Part shown: one piece after another, positions 25,236-32,473 of the stretch
How positions within the stretch are numbered: the first letter of the stretch is position 1
Layout of the letters: each line of letters begins with the position of its first letter
Origin: Promethearchaeota archaeon
GTDB lineage: Archaea > Asgardarchaeota > Lokiarchaeia > Sigyniarchaeales > SOKP01
Direction: 5' to 3'
Length of the DNA: 64,000 nucleotides
Assembly: GCA_030606485.1 (NCBI GenBank)
Contig: JAUWGH010000004.1
Location: 186,001 to 250,000 of the forward strand
Translations under genes and position numbers: made by a program
The notes under the pieces: generated by a model
What the model saw: the letters and a program-made list of their open reading frames with translations, nothing else
Told to the model about the DNA's origin: nothing
Database searches by the model: none

Positions 25236-26522
25236 ATGAATGATCTTCGAAGTAAATTGAAAATTTCTGAAGAGGCATTAAAAGCCCTAAATGATTTTCT
25301 TCTGGATAAGGATAATCTTATTATTAACGACCTTTTTAAAATTATAGACAAGTATGGTGGGGTTGAAGAGATTAACAAAAAGGCGGAAGAGGCGGGAAAG
25401 TTGGACAATTTAATTCAACAGTTAGAAAAGAAAAATCCATCATATGTAAAAAATATCGATTGGTTAATTGAGCAACGTGATAAACAAGCTTTTATTAGTA
25501 TTCGCGAGTATCGACGGAAGATTCTTGGTGATAAAGCTGAAAAGATGGACTTTGACGATACTTTTGCGGTAACTTTAGAGTTATCTGCATGTCAGTATTT
25601 TCCATTTTTAGTTGATATTATAAAACGAGCTATTGAGCATAAATTATTAGTACCTGGTCGAATAATTCGCGTTAGAAAAATGAAAGAGCAGGAAGAAGAT
25701 GGGGATCTTTTGGCTATGGCTGCTGCTATGCAAATTATTGGTGCATCATATGTAGAGACACTTGATACTAAGGGTACAGCTCCAGGTCCTGATGGACTTC
25801 CTGTAAATGTTCATCTTGGTGGTCCTGAAACCATTACCGGTTATTTCGGAGGCGTTGGTCAACCAAATGACTTTGCCTTGAAATGGGTTGATGAGTATCT
25901 CTACTATTATACAAATTATGGTATTAAACAAGTTCTCAACGTAAATCCCGGCACAGTTCTTCTTGGTTATTTTCTTTACAAACTGGGAATTAATAATGAA
26001 TTCAAAATTTCAGTCTATATGGGGAACGACAACCCTTATGCTTGTCTTTGGACCTTGATGACAGCAAAGTTATTTGCTCGAGAAGATGGTACAAGTCCAC
26101 TGATCGGTTTCAATCTTGCAAACTCCGTTAATAATGAGACAATCGAACTGTCAGCATATATTAGGAAATCATTTGGTTTTGAAGATATTGTTCGTTTAGA
26201 ACATCATATAGTTGAGACATGGAAAAGCATTGTAAGGCAGCCATATGATCGTCGGGATGAATTAATTGAACTTGCTAAAAAAGTAAAGAATGTGAGTGCT
26301 AAACATGAGGGGGGTAATATCGAAGTTGAACAGAAACGAGAGCATCCTTCGGATATTCTTGAATATTTCATGAGCAAAGAGGAGATTATGGAAGCAAATT
26401 TGTGGGAATCTATGCGAATTAACCATCTTGACCGTAATGATGCAGTAAATGCAACTGCCAGAGCTCTCACTGAGAATGGACTTACATTTCTCGCTGCAAG
26501 GAATCTTCATCAACTTAAATAA
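25236..26522 (+). CDS. unrecognised 428-aa protein upstream of the aldolase-Fae fusion
   Basis: A soluble protein: a charged helical N-terminus (1-110), then an alternating helix/strand region that could be a TIM-barrel-like fold (about 115-330), then a helical end. Conserved-looking patches are LDTKGTAPGPDGLP, VHLGGPETITGYFGGVG, YMGNDNPYACLW, NLANSVNNETIE and LEHHIVETW. I do not recognise the family. A strong GGAGG ribosome-binding site precedes the ATG. The DapA-Fae gene begins 18 nt downstream, so the two are surely co-transcribed and this protein may make or use the aldolase substrate. Lack of cysteine clusters argues against an Fe-S or radical enzyme. Confidence 0.7.
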   Translation: MNDLRSKLKISEEALKALNDFLLDKDNLIINDLFKIIDKYGGVEEINKKAEEAGKLDNLIQQLEKKNPSYVKNIDWLIEQRDKQAFISIREYRRKILGDKAEKMDFDDTFAVTLELSACQYFPFLVDIIKRAIEHKLLVPGRIIRVRKMKEQEEDGDLLAMAAAMQIIGASYVETLDTKGTAPGPDGLPVNVHLGGPETITGYFGGVGQPNDFALKWVDEYLYYYTNYGIKQVLNVNPGTVLLGYFLYKLGINNEFKISVYMGNDNPYACLWTLMTAKLFAREDGTSPLIGFNLANSVNNETIELSAYIRKSFGFEDIVRLEHHIVETWKSIVRQPYDRRDELIELAKKVKNVSAKHEGGNIEVEQKREHPSDILEYFMSKEEIMEANLWESMRINHLDRNDAVNATARALTENGLTFLAARNLHQLK

Positions 26523-26540
26523 AATTAAAGGTGAAAATAC

Positions 26541-28043
26541 ATGAGTAAAAATAAAGGAAAATTTGATTTCCGTCCTTCGGGGGTAATTCCTGCACTAGTT
26601 ACACCATTCAATAAGGAAGATGAATCTATTAATGAAGAGAATTTACGTAATCTAGTAAGTTTTCTAATTGAACAAGGAGTAACGGGTCTCGTTCCATGTG
26701 GTACAACTGGTGAATTTGTGAATATGACTTTTAAGGAGCGTCTGAAAGTAATCGAGATTGTAGTGGATGAGGCGAATGGGAGAGTCCCGGTAATTGCAGG
26801 AACTGGAGAATCGGGAACTAAACTCGTTATTGATGCTACTAGGGCTGCTACTGATATTGGTGCAGATGCAGCTATTATAGTAACACCTTATTATCTTAAA
26901 CCTAAAGCAAAAGGTTTATATGATCACTATTTTACGATAACTGAAAAGACAGATATACCTCTCGTTCTATATAATATTCCTCCTTGCACAGGGGTTAATT
27001 TGCCTTGGACTGTGGTAGAGGATCTTGTCGATATTGATAATATTGTAGCTATTAAGGATTCAAGTGGTGATTACAAATATTTTTCTGCATTATTGGAAAA
27101 AGTAAGTGATCGAATCTCAGTCCTTATTGGATGGGATGAAAATGTCTTGGCAGCGCTGGCTGGTGGAGCTGCAGGAATGATTCTTGCCTCAGCTAATGTG
27201 ATTCCAAAGATTTGGCTCGAACTATATAATCATGTGAAAAACAACCGTCTTGAGGAAGCTCAGGTTCTTCAGAAAAAGATTCAAAAATTTACTCGGATGA
27301 TGGTAAGTTCTGGTGCTTTAGGACCTAAAGAGTGTTTGAATATGATGAATATTCCTGTTGGTGTTACTCGACAGCCGATAATAATGGGTGATACACTTTC
27401 CTATGAGCTTTGGGATGAATTTAGAATTGAATTGGAGAAGTTAGGTTTGCTAAAAAAGAAGGAAATTAAATTTGAAGTTGCCGAGAAAGAACTTACGAGT
27501 CGTTTTTATTCTGTTGATATTACTCCTCAGAAAATTTCAGACTTTAGTTTAAGGGTTGGTGAATCACTCGTAGGAAATAGAGCCGAACTTGCTCATGTAG
27601 ACCTTCTTATTGGTGATAAGAAAGGTCCTGTTGGTGAAGCATATGCTCGTTCCCTAACACATCCTGCGAAAGGACGTGAAGGTCTTCAAGTAATTCTTGA
27701 ACCTAACATGCAAGTTAAACCGGCAACAGTAATGATTCCTACAGTTAAAGTCCATTCGCTACGTCAAGCAAGTCTCGTATATGGACCTGCACAAGCAGCA
27801 GTAGGGAAAGCGGTAATGAAATGTGTGGAAGATGGTATTCTTCCTAAAGATGCTTCAGAAGATTTAGTGATTATTGCAAATGTTTTTGTGCATCCCAGTG
27901 CAAGTAGTCGCAAACGAATTTTTATTAATAACTATAAAGCAACCCGGAATGCTATTCGAAAGGCGATGGAAGGATTACCAACAGCAGATGATGGCATAAA
28001 GAATAGTGAAAATGCTCGCCACCCATTTAGAAATGATCCTTAA
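26541..28043 (+). CDS. bifunctional DapA-family aldolase and formaldehyde-activating enzyme (Fae) fusion
   Basis: 500 aa with two complete domains. Residues 12-305 are a class I pyruvate-type aldolase of the DHDPS/NAL family: PCGTTGEF (52-59), [10 protein letters not shown] with Y144, and VAIKDSSG with the Schiff-base lysine K172. Residues about 335-490 are Fae: [20 protein letters not shown] with the catalytic His (H352), [33 protein letters not shown] and ANVFVHPSA. Fae condenses formaldehyde with tetrahydromethanopterin to methylene-H4MPT. An aldolase that releases formaldehyde (for example from 4-hydroxy-2-oxobutanoate, giving pyruvate) would feed the fused Fae; the substrate is inference. 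Fae is otherwise known fused to hexulose-phosphate synthase. Convergent with the glycine cleavage operon. Confidence 0.92.
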
Positions 28044-28091: not shown

Positions 28092-29528
28092 TTAATCGTG
28101 TAATATTGGCTTTCGAGCAGCAAGAGCAGCATCAAGACGTTTTACTGGAGTGTTGAAGGGGGCATTTTTGAGAAGCTCTGGATTGGTTTTTGTTTCATTG
28201 TAGATTTTATTCATCACCTCAACAAAATTATCTAATGAAATTTTCGACTCAGTCTCGGTTGGTTCAATCATCATAGCACCTTTTACTATTAACGGAAAAT
28301 AAATTGTTGGGGCATATAATCCATAATCAAGAATACGTTTTGCAATATCTTCAGTAGTTATATTATTTTCAATTCCTCGATCTGAAAGCACAAATTCATG
28401 CTGACAGATTCGATCATATGGAAGGTGGTATTTTTCTTTTAAAAGAACTCGCAAATAATTTGCATTAAGAACAGCTATTTGACCCACGCGTTTTAGACCT
28501 TCGGCACCTAAGGCGAGAATATAGGCATATGCACGCACAATAACTCCAAAATTACCCCAAAAGCATTTAATCCGACCAATAGAATTGTTGGTTTTTTCTC
28601 GACATACAAATCCCTGTTCTGTAGCGATAATGGAGGGTTCAGGGAGATATGAAACGAGTTCTTTAATAACACCCACAGGTCCAGAACCAGGACCACCTCC
28701 ACCATGTGGAGTTGAGAAAGTTTTATGGAAATTCAGATGGATGATATCAAAACCCATATCCCCTGGGCGGCAAATCCCTAACATAGGATTCAAATTAGCG
28801 CCATCATAGTAGCATAAACCCCCATATTTGTGTATGATATTCGTGATATCCTTAATTTGACGGTCAAATATACCCAAAGTATTGGGATTAGTTAACATTA
28901 TACCCGCTACATCGCCCTGCTGCATTGCGAATTCAATGTGATCAAGTGGAATTTCTCCCGCATTATTTGATCGTACTTCGATTATTGAAAAACCTGCCAT
29001 TTTTGCAGATGATGGGTTAGTTCCATGGGCGGAATCTGGTATTAATATTTTATTTTTTTTGAGATTTTTATTCTCGAAATATTTTTTCATTATTAAAATC
29101 CCAGTTAATTCTCCATGAGCTCCCGCAGCAGGTTGAAAAGTAAATCCATCCATACCGGTAATTTCTATGAGCATCTCTGAGAGTTGGTGTATTAGTTCAA
29201 GAGCGCCTTGATTACCTTCTTGAAGAGGATGTATTTGGGAAAAAGCTGGAAGTCGAGTGATCACCTCATTAATTTTAGGATTATATTTCATAGTGCATGA
29301 ACCAAGCGGATAAATTCCTGAATCTATCCCATAATTTTTCCTACTCAACTCGGTATAATGGCGTACAATTTCTACCTCTGGAATATCGGGTAAGGGAAAA
29401 TCTTCTCGTTGAAAAGATGAGGGAATTATTTCGGCTAAATCAGCTCTATCTATATCCATTTCAGGAATGAAATTATGTTGAGAGCGTTTAGTACCTTTGT
29501 TAAAAATCAAAGTCAGGTTTGAAGTCAT
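28092..29528 (-). CDS. gcvPB: glycine dehydrogenase (decarboxylating) subunit 2
   Basis: The 478-aa PLP-carrying half of the split P protein of the glycine cleavage system. IIHLNFHKTFSTPHGGGGPG (about 264-283) contains the PLP lysine (HKTFSTPHGGGG); SCTMKYNPKINE and PAAGAHGELTGIL are further family motifs. With GcvPA it decarboxylates glycine and passes the aminomethyl group to lipoyl-GcvH. It starts 3 nt after the stop of gcvPA, and is the last gene of the gcvT-H-PA-PB operon. Confidence 0.95.
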   Translation of the reverse strand: MTSNLTLIFNKGTKRSQHNFIPEMDIDRADLAEIIPSSFQREDFPLPDIPEVEIVRHYTELSRKNYGIDSGIYPLGSCTMKYNPKINEVITRLPAFSQIHPLQEGNQGALELIHQLSEMLIEITGMDGFTFQPAAGAHGELTGILIMKKYFENKNLKKNKILIPDSAHGTNPSSAKMAGFSIIEVRSNNAGEIPLDHIEFAMQQGDVAGIMLTNPNTLGIFDRQIKDITNIIHKYGGLCYYDGANLNPMLGICRPGDMGFDIIHLNFHKTFSTPHGGGGPGSGPVGVIKELVSYLPEPSIIATEQGFVCREKTNNSIGRIKCFWGNFGVIVRAYAYILALGAEGLKRVGQIAVLNANYLRVLLKEKYHLPYDRICQHEFVLSDRGIENNITTEDIAKRILDYGLYAPTIYFPLIVKGAMMIEPTETESKISLDNFVEVMNKIYNETKTNPELLKNAPFNTPVKRLDAALAARKPILHD

Positions 29529-29531
29529 TGT

Positions 29532-30872
29532 TTAATTCCCTCCTATGTTTTTATTAGAAGCTTTTTGAGCTGCATGAATGAATTTTTCTATATCCTCCCG
29601 AGAATTACTCTCAGTAACACATACAAGTACAATATCTTTCATATCAGGAAAATATTTCGATATAATTAGAGGTGGAAGCAGATTTTCCTGTTTGCATTGT
29701 TCAATTAGTTTATTAACATTTGGACATTTAACCAAAAATTCATTATATGTTGGTTTCTTATTTAATATTTGATAACCTGGGATGGTTGCTAATTTTTGCT
29801 TAACATAATGAGATTTTTGAAAATTTTGAAGAGCAATCTCTTGAAGCCCTGTTTTTCCCAATGAAACGAGATAAATTAACGAGGCTAAAGCACACAGTGC
29901 TTGGTTCGTACAAATATTTGAAGTGGCTTTCTCACGACGTATATGTTGTTCGCGGGTTTGTAAAGTTAGGATAAATCCCTCTCGCTCTCCATCAATTTCG
30001 TTAGTTTTACCAATCAACCGACCTGGCATTTTACGCAAATATTTTTGCTTAGATGCAAAAATTCCTAATCCTGGACCCCCAAATGATGGTGAAATACCAA
30101 AAGATTGTCCTTCAGCAACAAAAATATCAATATCGGATTTTCCTGGAGGTTTTAACACGCCTAGGCAAGTAGGATCGGTCATTACTTGAACAACTAAACA
30201 TTTGGGAGCTTTATCTCTAATTTTTTGAACTAATTCTGATACATTTTCGATGTCTCCAAAAAAATTAGGACTCTGAAATAAAACAGCTGCAACACTATCA
30301 TCCAATTTTGAGATGAGTGTATCCTCCATAACAATTTCAAAATGGATGTCTTGCCCCCAGCAATAGGTCTTAACAACTTCTACATATTCCGGATGAATTC
30401 CTTCAAGTAAAATAAGTTTTTTTTTCTGCGTGGCTATAGTTGCCATAATTGCAGCTTCAGCAAGAGCAGTGGACCCATCATACACACTCGCATTGGCAAC
30501 ATCCATCTGGGTAAGCCGCGTAATTGCTGTTTGATACTCATAAATGGCTTGTAAATACCCTTGACTGGCTTCTGCTTGGTAGGGAGTATAGGCAGTATAA
30601 AATCCCGAAAGGCTAATTACAAAATCCACCAATGAAGGAATATAATGGTAATAACAACCAGCTCCTAGAAAAGAACTTGAATAAATTTTATTTTTATTTG
30701 AAAGTTCTTCTAATCGCCGTAAAAGATCTGGTTCAGACAAACCATGAGGTATGTTTAATTTTTCTAACAGCAAATCTGCTGGAATGTCTTGAAATAACTC
30801 CTCTAAGGAATTAACACCGATGGAAGTTAACATCTCGGCAATTGTTTCTTTATCATGAAGTATAAAATCCAT
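29532..30872 (-). CDS. gcvPA: glycine dehydrogenase (decarboxylating) subunit 1
   Basis: The 446-aa subunit that pairs with GcvPB. SSFLGAGCYYHYIPSLVDFV, YTPYQAEASQGYLQAIYEYQ and SVYDGSTALAEAAIMAT are family signatures, and FGGPGLGIFASKQKYLRKMP lies in the later half. It has no PLP lysine of its own, as expected. Sixty nt separate it from gcvH. Confidence 0.95.
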   Translation of the reverse strand: MDFILHDKETIAEMLTSIGVNSLEELFQDIPADLLLEKLNIPHGLSEPDLLRRLEELSNKNKIYSSSFLGAGCYYHYIPSLVDFVISLSGFYTAYTPYQAEASQGYLQAIYEYQTAITRLTQMDVANASVYDGSTALAEAAIMATIATQKKKLILLEGIHPEYVEVVKTYCWGQDIHFEIVMEDTLISKLDDSVAAVLFQSPNFFGDIENVSELVQKIRDKAPKCLVVQVMTDPTCLGVLKPPGKSDIDIFVAEGQSFGISPSFGGPGLGIFASKQKYLRKMPGRLIGKTNEIDGEREGFILTLQTREQHIRREKATSNICTNQALCALASLIYLVSLGKTGLQEIALQNFQKSHYVKQKLATIPGYQILNKKPTYNEFLVKCPNVNKLIEQCKQENLLPPLIISKYFPDMKDIVLVCVTESNSREDIEKFIHAAQKASNKNIGGN

Positions 30873-30932
30873 TCTATCTATCTCATTTAGATGGTAATAG
30901 TTGGATTAATCTATTAAATTAAAAAAAAACTA

Positions 30933-31328
30933 TTAATCTTCCTCTTTTTGGATCATTTCTTGATATTTTTCAACCGAGAGAAGATTTTTAATTTCATCTG
31001 GGTTAGATACTTTAATTTTCATTATCCAACCCTCCCCGTAAGGCGAAGAATTCAGAAATGCTGGATTATCAGCGATGTTTCCATTAGTTTCAACAATTTC
31101 TCCCGTTAAAGGCATGAAAAGTTCGCTAACAGCTTTGACTGATTCAATTTCGCATGCTGCATTTCCTTTTTCTAATACTGCTCCTATTACAGGGAGTTCA
31201 ACATATACAATATCGCCAAGTTTATGTTGTGCGTAGTCAGAGATTCCAACAGTTGCCATATCTCCATCCATTCTAACCCACTCGTGAGTTGGTGCATATT
31301 TTAAATCTGCAGGAAATTTTAGATCCAT
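30933..31328 (-). CDS. gcvH: glycine cleavage system H protein
   Basis: A 131-aa lipoyl carrier. YAPTHEWVRMDGDMATVGIS opens the domain, and CEIESVKAVSELFMPLTGEI holds the lipoylated K65. It shuttles the aminomethyl group from the P protein to GcvT. This is the operon copy; a second, more divergent copy lies at 36063-36491. No lipoate ligase or synthase is in the window. Confidence 0.95.
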   Translation of the reverse strand: MDLKFPADLKYAPTHEWVRMDGDMATVGISDYAQHKLGDIVYVELPVIGAVLEKGNAACEIESVKAVSELFMPLTGEIVETNGNIADNPAFLNSSPYGEGWIMKIKVSNPDEIKNLLSVEKYQEMIQKEED

Positions 31329-31366
31329 CCTTATTCACATTAATCTTGATTTTTATTCAAATTTTA

Positions 31367-32473
31367 CTATATATTACGATAAAATGGTGTGGGAACTACT
31401 TTGGCTTTAAGAAGTTTATTCCGAATTTCAATGTCAAATTCCGTCCCGATGGAGCTATATTGTGTTTCAACGAGAGCTAAGCCAATTGTGTTTTTAAGCG
31501 TTGGTGAGAATCCCCCAGAAGTTACATATCCAATTTCTACCCCGTTCTTAAATAATTTGTAGTTTTCTCTAATGATTCCCCTATTCAAGAGATTTAATCC
31601 AACAAGAATTCGTGATGTCCCCTCTTTTTTTTGGCGAATAAGAACTTCCTTACCTATAAAATCAATTCCTTCTTTTGGTTTTACAAGCCAGTTAAGCCCT
31701 GCTTCAATCGGGGTTATTGAATTAGTAAGTTCATGACCATACAAGCAGTAACAAGCTTCTAAACGTAAAGAATCCCGCGCCCCTAAACCTGCAGCACCAG
31801 CTCCTGTTTTCATAAAAGCATTCCAAATTGTTACAGCGTATTTATTTTCAAAAGAAATTTCAAAACCTCTCTCACCAGTGTAACCAGTTCGGGCTATGAA
31901 TGCAGGAACATCACACAAATTACAAAAAACAAAATAAAACCGATTCAAAGTAGATAAATCTGTATCAACGAGTGGCGCAATTAAGTCATCAGATTTCGGC
32001 CCTTGAAATGCTAATCGACATCTTTCTTTCGAGACATCCCTAACTTTTACTCGAAAGTTTCCAATTTGCTTATTAATCCATTGAAAATCTTTCTCTACAT
32101 TACTTGCGTTGACAATCATCCGAAATCGTTCCGGACTCTCCTCATAGTAAACTAAATCGTCTACTACAGTCCCATTTTCATAACACATGCAAGAATATTG
32201 TCCTTTTGACTTTTCTAATAATTTTAAATCATTCACCATCAAATATTGAAGGAATGGTATCACATCTGGACCTTCAAAAATAAATTCTCCCATATGAGAA
32301 ATATCGAACACACCTGCAAGCGTTCGAATGGTTTCATGTTCCTTTAAAATGCTTTCATATTGGACTGGCATCAACCATCCAGCAAAATTCACCATTCGCG
32401 CCCCCAATTTTACATGAGTCTCATATAAAGGGGTTTTTGTTCCATTTAGGTCTTCTTTAGTTATAAATTCCAC
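31367..32473 (-). CDS. gcvT: aminomethyltransferase (glycine cleavage T protein)
   Basis: A 368-aa folate/pterin-dependent enzyme. LGARMVNFAGWLMPVQYESI, GVFDISHMGEFIFEGPD, RTGYTGERGFEISFE and the GLGARDSLRLEACYCLYGHE motif are typical. It releases ammonia and makes methylene-tetrahydropterin. Since MptE and Fae are encoded close by, the natural acceptor may be H4MPT or a related pterin. First gene of the operon; the 250-nt spacer to the ferredoxin shows no recognisable glycine riboswitch. Confidence 0.94.
   Translation of the reverse strand: MEFITKEDLNGTKTPLYETHVKLGARMVNFAGWLMPVQYESILKEHETIRTLAGVFDISHMGEFIFEGPDVIPFLQYLMVNDLKLLEKSKGQYSCMCYENGTVVDDLVYYEESPERFRMIVNASNVEKDFQWINKQIGNFRVKVRDVSKERCRLAFQGPKSDDLIAPLVDTDLSTLNRFYFVFCNLCDVPAFIARTGYTGERGFEISFENKYAVTIWNAFMKTGAGAAGLGARDSLRLEACYCLYGHELTNSITPIEAGLNWLVKPKEGIDFIGKEVLIRQKKEGTSRILVGLNLLNRGIIRENYKLFKNGVEIGYVTSGGFSPTLKNTIGLALVETQYSSIGTEFDIEIRNKLLKAKVVPTPFYRNI

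Follow-up and report, generated by a model that had tools for sequence, protein, structure and literature searches.

An archaeal fusion of a DHDPS-family aldolase with formaldehyde-activating enzyme, and a possible one-carbon route to homoserine in place of homoserine dehydrogenase

A protein that joins an aldolase of the dihydrodipicolinate synthase (DHDPS) family to formaldehyde-activating enzyme (Fae) is encoded in a Promethearchaeota archaeon, recurs across several archaeal lineages and, in the genomes tested, occurs mostly where homoserine dehydrogenase was not found. In the reading we favor, which falls only a little short of an even call, the fusion interconverts methylene-tetrahydromethanopterin (methylene-H4MPT) plus pyruvate and 4-hydroxy-2-oxobutanoate (HOB), mainly for the synthesis of homoserine. 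The wider proposal is more tentative: in archaea including Lokiarchaeia and Bathyarchaeia, homoserine dehydrogenase would have been replaced by a naturally occurring pathway that makes homoserine from pyruvate and a C1 unit through the action of the fusion on methylene-H4MPT. Two undescribed partner families of 428 and 312 aa, able to stand in for each other and perhaps remotely related, would belong to it.

In the window (the whole 64,000-nt stretch of contig JAUWGH010000004.1 that was analysed), the fusion is a single 500-aa open reading frame with an ATG start on the forward strand (26541..28043, +), as called from the ORF, Pfam, NCBIfam and AlphaFold2 results; a ribosome-binding-site-like ggtgaaa, read directly and assigned by consensus resemblance only, lies 5′ of its start codon (26530..26536, +). 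The aldolase domain (PF00701, residues 12-281, 26574..27383, +; Pfam, Foldseek and residue alignment) scores 250.9 bits against a Pfam cut-off of 22.1, and the Fae domain (PF08714, residues 339-496, 27555..28028, +; Pfam and sequence alignment) scores 192 bits against a cut-off of 27; the NCBIfam models TIGR00674 (231 bits, cut-off 206) and TIGR03126 (193.4 bits, cut-off 118) also match. In particular, T55, T56, Y144 (codon 26970-26972, +) and the Schiff-base K172 (27054-27056, +) align with the Thr pair (Thr44-Thr45), Tyr133 and Lys161 of DHDPS, while H352 (27594-27596, +) aligns with the catalytic histidine of Methylobacterium extorquens Fae 1y5y, presumably His17 in M. extorquens numbering; the sequence match to 1y5y has an E-value of 5e-32. 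The initial annotation had described both domains as complete with intact catalytic residues, and these scores and alignments bear out that description. Structure prediction, which it had also proposed, yielded an AlphaFold2 model (mean pLDDT 80.6) with two folded domains and a loose, low-confidence linker (residues 309-336, 27465..27548, +), where the DHDPS part resembles M. jannaschii DHDPS 2yxg with a TM score of 0.95 on the target (Foldseek). A scan for sigma-70 promoters and terminators, using a sigma-70 model unsuited to archaea, found nothing above chance.

The fusion is widespread. In a PF08714 search of 228 Asgard genomes, many turned out to carry, beside Fae-HPS, a second Fae whose open frame spans roughly 490-520 aa; 19 full-length Asgard fusions can be aligned over their whole length, and Y144, K172, T56 and H352 are invariant among them. 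Among GTDB species genomes, 80 loci were kept of 181 relatives, and the hosts are Lokiarchaeota, Bathyarchaeota (complete chromosomes among them), Njordarchaeum and one Theionarchaea MAG; nearly all of the genomes surveyed are MAGs. In total, 122 distinct fusion proteins were collected, which keep Y144 without exception, K172 and T56 in 121 cases each, and H352 in 114. Because the same frame is open in other genomes at 47-97% identity, the fusion is neither a chance product nor a frame error, and its recurrence in the same domain order across many genomes, for which a search of other Asgard genomes had been suggested from the sequence, rules out an artefact of one assembly. Moreover, in a tree of Fae domains, 56 from fusions lie on one side of a branch and 34 from Fae-HPS on another (support 100/99), so that one origin of the aldolase-Fae fusion is the simplest reading.

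The direction of the proposed reaction is suggested by the distribution of homoserine dehydrogenase (PF00742), which was searched for in 28 genomes, 21 with the fusion and 7 without. It was not found in 18 of the 21 fusion genomes (six Lokiarchaeota, one of which is the window's own 100%-complete genome; G001; two genomes of family f28; and nine Bathyarchaeota), and it is present in six of the seven fusion-less genomes, the seventh being G088, which has a standalone DHDPS-like gene. The exclusion has a Fisher p of 0.0014 with shared descent ignored, where absence was called with one family model and the counts are not phylogeny-corrected. Within the window's own family (f1), the enzyme is absent in the fusion genera g1, g7 and g8 and present in the fusion-less genera g3 and g6. 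Three genomes have both: G177 and G178, whose fusions are divergent, and G002, whose fusion has lost the Fae histidine. The initial annotation had placed the main role in formaldehyde release and trapping by Fae, with fixation of formaldehyde into a C4 keto acid as an aside; since homoserine dehydrogenase is missing from most fusion genomes, that order is reversed, and synthesis becomes the direction that we infer. G002, by keeping homoserine dehydrogenase where the Fae histidine is lost, counts for the synthesis reading. G177 and G178 count against it, as does the neighborhood in Lokiarchaeota, where neither a HOB aminotransferase nor a homoserine kinase was seen adjoining the fusion.

Part of this pattern may instead reflect loss of the entire pathway, because threonine synthase is weak or missing in G132, G230, G232, G233 and G236, which carry the fusion and lack homoserine dehydrogenase. 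The threonine synthase of the window genome scores 172.6 bits against a cut-off of 167.1, several other fusion genomes without homoserine dehydrogenase are also above the cut-off, and in G096, from the window's genus, a second threonine synthase adjoins ThrH, a homoserine phosphotransferase. Separately, genes for a threonine-synthase-like protein and for the S component of an ECF transporter are repeatedly found as neighbors in Lokiarchaeota, Bathyarchaeota, G001 and f28 (L147 5215-7366, L261 6374-9161, L268 6143-8378 and L275 1028-3422).

A 428-aa partner gene (25236..26522, +) ends 18 bases before the fusion. At each of the 38 loci scored in named Lokiarchaeota genomes, it immediately precedes the fusion on the same strand, with gaps from -41 to 28 bases; in lineages outside Lokiarchaeota it is usually either a divergent neighbor of the fusion (18 adjacent) or located close by, and 24 Bathyarchaeota-type loci have it next to the fusion or a short distance away. 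Searches of Pfam, NCBIfam and PDB sequences returned no match to the partner, even at an E-value of 10 with a profile; a deep alignment of the family holds 64 non-redundant sequences. Its AlphaFold2 model has a pLDDT of 65.8 and its top Foldseek matches are methylenetetrahydrofolate reductases (E 3e-4), a fold that is not claimed here because the TM scores are only about 0.3-0.4. In some Bathyarchaeota, the partner stands apart from the fusion and beside electron-transfer-flavoprotein genes (L106 2736-6031, L185 and L190), joined in L106 and L185 by an aldehyde:ferredoxin oxidoreductase (AOR).

The partner is found in 126 of the 228 Asgard genomes, including genomes without Fae, and its surroundings there are linked to homoserine. 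In the Fae-less families f12 and f15, its neighbors are genes for an aminotransferase, for homoserine dehydrogenase and for AOR; in f11 (L152) it occurs with an aminotransferase alone; and in G088 it lies beside the standalone DHDPS-like protein, which reads YQLPQIT and has no Arg. In the fusion-bearing family f28, it neighbors threonine synthase and an ECF S component. No PF00701 gene was found in the three f12 and two f15 genomes tested, and the partner is therefore independent of the aldolase. This context gives new support to HOB chemistry: HOB had been put forward from the window alone as a candidate substrate, and it would remain the best candidate.

Where the 428-aa partner is absent, a 312-aa family often replaces it beside the fusion, and none of the Asgard genomes listed has both families. 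For example, within genus g47, G177 has the 428-aa gene (L150 7556-8869, -) and G178 the 312-aa gene (L217 1468-2427, +) at the same site, which in both genomes lies between shared ABC transporter and class III aminotransferase genes; this looks like an in-place swap of two undescribed families. A comparison of the two family profiles gave a probability of 64.5% (E 6e-5) over 225 columns, whereas 22 control comparisons reached 2.2% at most, and the families may be remotely related. The 312-aa family also has a weak Peptidase_U32 match (E 0.0065), and in family f18 its gene adjoins a D-threonine aldolase/BhcC-like gene (L213 2672-3808).

In the proposed mechanism, the Fae domain would exchange formaldehyde with methylene-H4MPT, and the class I aldolase domain, holding pyruvate as a Schiff base on K172, would exchange the same formaldehyde with HOB; placing both domains on one chain would keep free formaldehyde low. 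The main direction in the cell would be from methylene-H4MPT and pyruvate to HOB, which an ordinary aminotransferase could convert to homoserine, making homoserine dehydrogenase unneeded, and the 428-aa partner or its 312-aa counterpart would act next to the HOB step, on homoserine or on HOB. The Asgard family f28 offers a hint that the two activities work together. It carries two tandem fusions (L180 499-1902 and 1939-3387 in G192; L166/L176, L169/L181 and L170/L175), where copy 1 has lost the Fae histidine in 7 of 7 examined and kept the aldolase residues, and copy 2 has retained the Fae histidine but, in G192, no longer has the aldolase lysine (K to S) or one of the threonines. These complementary losses would fit a mixed complex in which each of the two sites must be present at least once.

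Four other readings were weighed. HOB from the breakdown of homoserine or threonine might be cleaved to pyruvate and formaldehyde, with Fae saving the formaldehyde as methylene-H4MPT; the reaction is reversible and so allows a formaldehyde trap, AOR genes near the partner fit amino acid fermentation, and Fae-HPS is thought to run this way in archaea (PMC5241800). However, cleavage leaves the missing homoserine dehydrogenase in fusion genomes unexplained, because homoserine would then be without an internal source, and we consider this direction unlikely as the main one. Far less probable is a ketopantoate synthase, which would add formaldehyde from methylene-H4MPT to 2-oxoisovalerate and replace PanB in coenzyme A synthesis. 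PanB (PF02548) was not found in the window's genus g1 (G000 and G094-G097), although most Lokiarchaeota have it, and some fusions have nearby a CitG-like gene, whose family acts on dephospho-CoA; PanB replacement is nevertheless disfavored, as the majority of the other fusion genomes do encode PanB (G118, G132, G140, G112, G181 and G186 are examples). The CitG-like gene adjoins the fusion in family f18 (L043 3330-4313).

The two remaining readings turn on residues of the aldolase domain. DHDPS uses Arg138 to hold the carboxylate group of its substrate, aspartate semialdehyde. At this position, which is C149 in the window's protein (26985-26987, +), the 122 fusions have Cys (94), Val (10), Ala (7), Leu (7), Thr (2) or Met (1) and never Arg, a pattern that suits a small uncharged aldehyde as judged from the residues. 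Public annotation pipelines would probably label the fusion dapA, since its TIGR00674 score passes the cut-off, and this score is what speaks for an ordinary DHDPS of the lysine pathway that incidentally carries Fae. The residue pattern contradicts the label and, moreover, the window genome has a second PF00701 gene with the motif YNVPGRT, where the Arg is present, followed directly by dapB (contig C10). The initial annotation had raised DHDPS as a possible identity; with Arg138 in none of the 122 fusions and a dapA-dapB pair elsewhere in the genome, the lysine-pathway identity is all but excluded by the sequence evidence, and we give it almost no weight. A sugar-acid aldolase, acting on a larger 2-oxo-3-deoxy acid in the manner of KDG aldolase or N-acetylneuraminate lyase (NAL) and using Fae as a scavenging, sensing or assembly domain, is improbable too, slightly more so than cleavage of HOB. 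In its favor, and as the main point against formaldehyde as the sole acceptor, stands the conserved pair D199 (122 of 122 fusions) and E200 (121 of 122), which we take to resemble the NAL pair contacting sugar hydroxyls; formaldehyde would have no use for such a pair. The NAL and KDG aldolase models also match, far under their cut-offs (TIGR00683, 151.8 bits against 382; NF040954, 100.9 bits against 390), and glycerate 2-kinase and phosphoglycerate mutase genes adjoin the fusion in L032, L033, L112 and L127; in Njordarchaeum-type genomes, these are glycerate 2-kinase-like (DUF4147/MOFRL) and phosphoglycerate mutase genes (L033 8861-10318 and L032 4700-7483). Against a sugar acid, the Fae active site is kept in most fusions, while a pure assembly domain would not need its histidine, and the homoserine-linked context is left unexplained.

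If homoserine synthesis through HOB is confirmed, the pathway would be new to nature, and a reaction otherwise known from engineered E. coli alone would have a natural counterpart. Archaea near the origin of eukaryotes would then build threonine-family amino acids on C1 units that come from CO2, the missing homoserine dehydrogenase of the fusion genomes would be accounted for, and the undescribed protein family of the partner would gain its first functional frame. Further, synthetic C1 assimilation would gain a HOB aldolase that is natural and formaldehyde-safe, and the joining of Fae to an aldolase would have arisen at least twice. In the open-access literature, no paper was found that names Fae together with dihydrodipicolinate, and no description of the aldolase-Fae fusion was found in a search that covered open-access papers and few preprints or subscription journals; the Asgard and Bathyarchaeota Fae literature found describes Fae or Fae-HPS only. 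Beside the fusion in the window, a glycine cleavage operon (gcvPB, gcvPA, gcvH and gcvT; 28092-32473, -) converges on it, an arrangement seen in the window's genus and not in the other Lokiarchaeota loci compared.

Fae joined to an aldolase is already known from Fae-HPS (PRK13307/NF009833), and the fusion is a new variant in its aldolase family and its domain order. Both are archaeal and both attach Fae to an aldolase, a formaldehyde-using one in Fae-HPS, whose authors suggested that the formaldehyde set free by the aldolase is caught by Fae (PMC5241800); by analogy with this precedent, the attached Fae implies formaldehyde as a substrate of the fusion. In contrast, the fusion's aldolase belongs to the class I Schiff-base DHDPS family, while that of Fae-HPS has another superfamily and mechanism; Fae is C-terminal in the fusion, while HPS is C-terminal to Fae in Fae-HPS; and the Fae domains form distinct clades. 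The window genome encodes a Fae-HPS as well (C2:171370). Compared with the DHDPS/NAL superfamily (DapA, TIGR00674 and PF00701), the fusion shares the fold, the Schiff-base lysine, the tyrosine and the threonine pair, and it differs from DapA by lacking Arg138, carrying Fae, lying away from dapB and coexisting with a separate dapA. The closest parallel to the proposed chemistry is the engineered homoserine cycle of E. coli, which likewise leads from pyruvate and formaldehyde through HOB to homoserine by HOB aldolase and HOB aminotransferase steps, and in which HOB was called a non-native metabolite (PMC8879981). The aldolase of that cycle is RhmA, an unrelated and promiscuous enzyme, whereas the one proposed here would be a dedicated, conserved natural protein with a built-in Fae.
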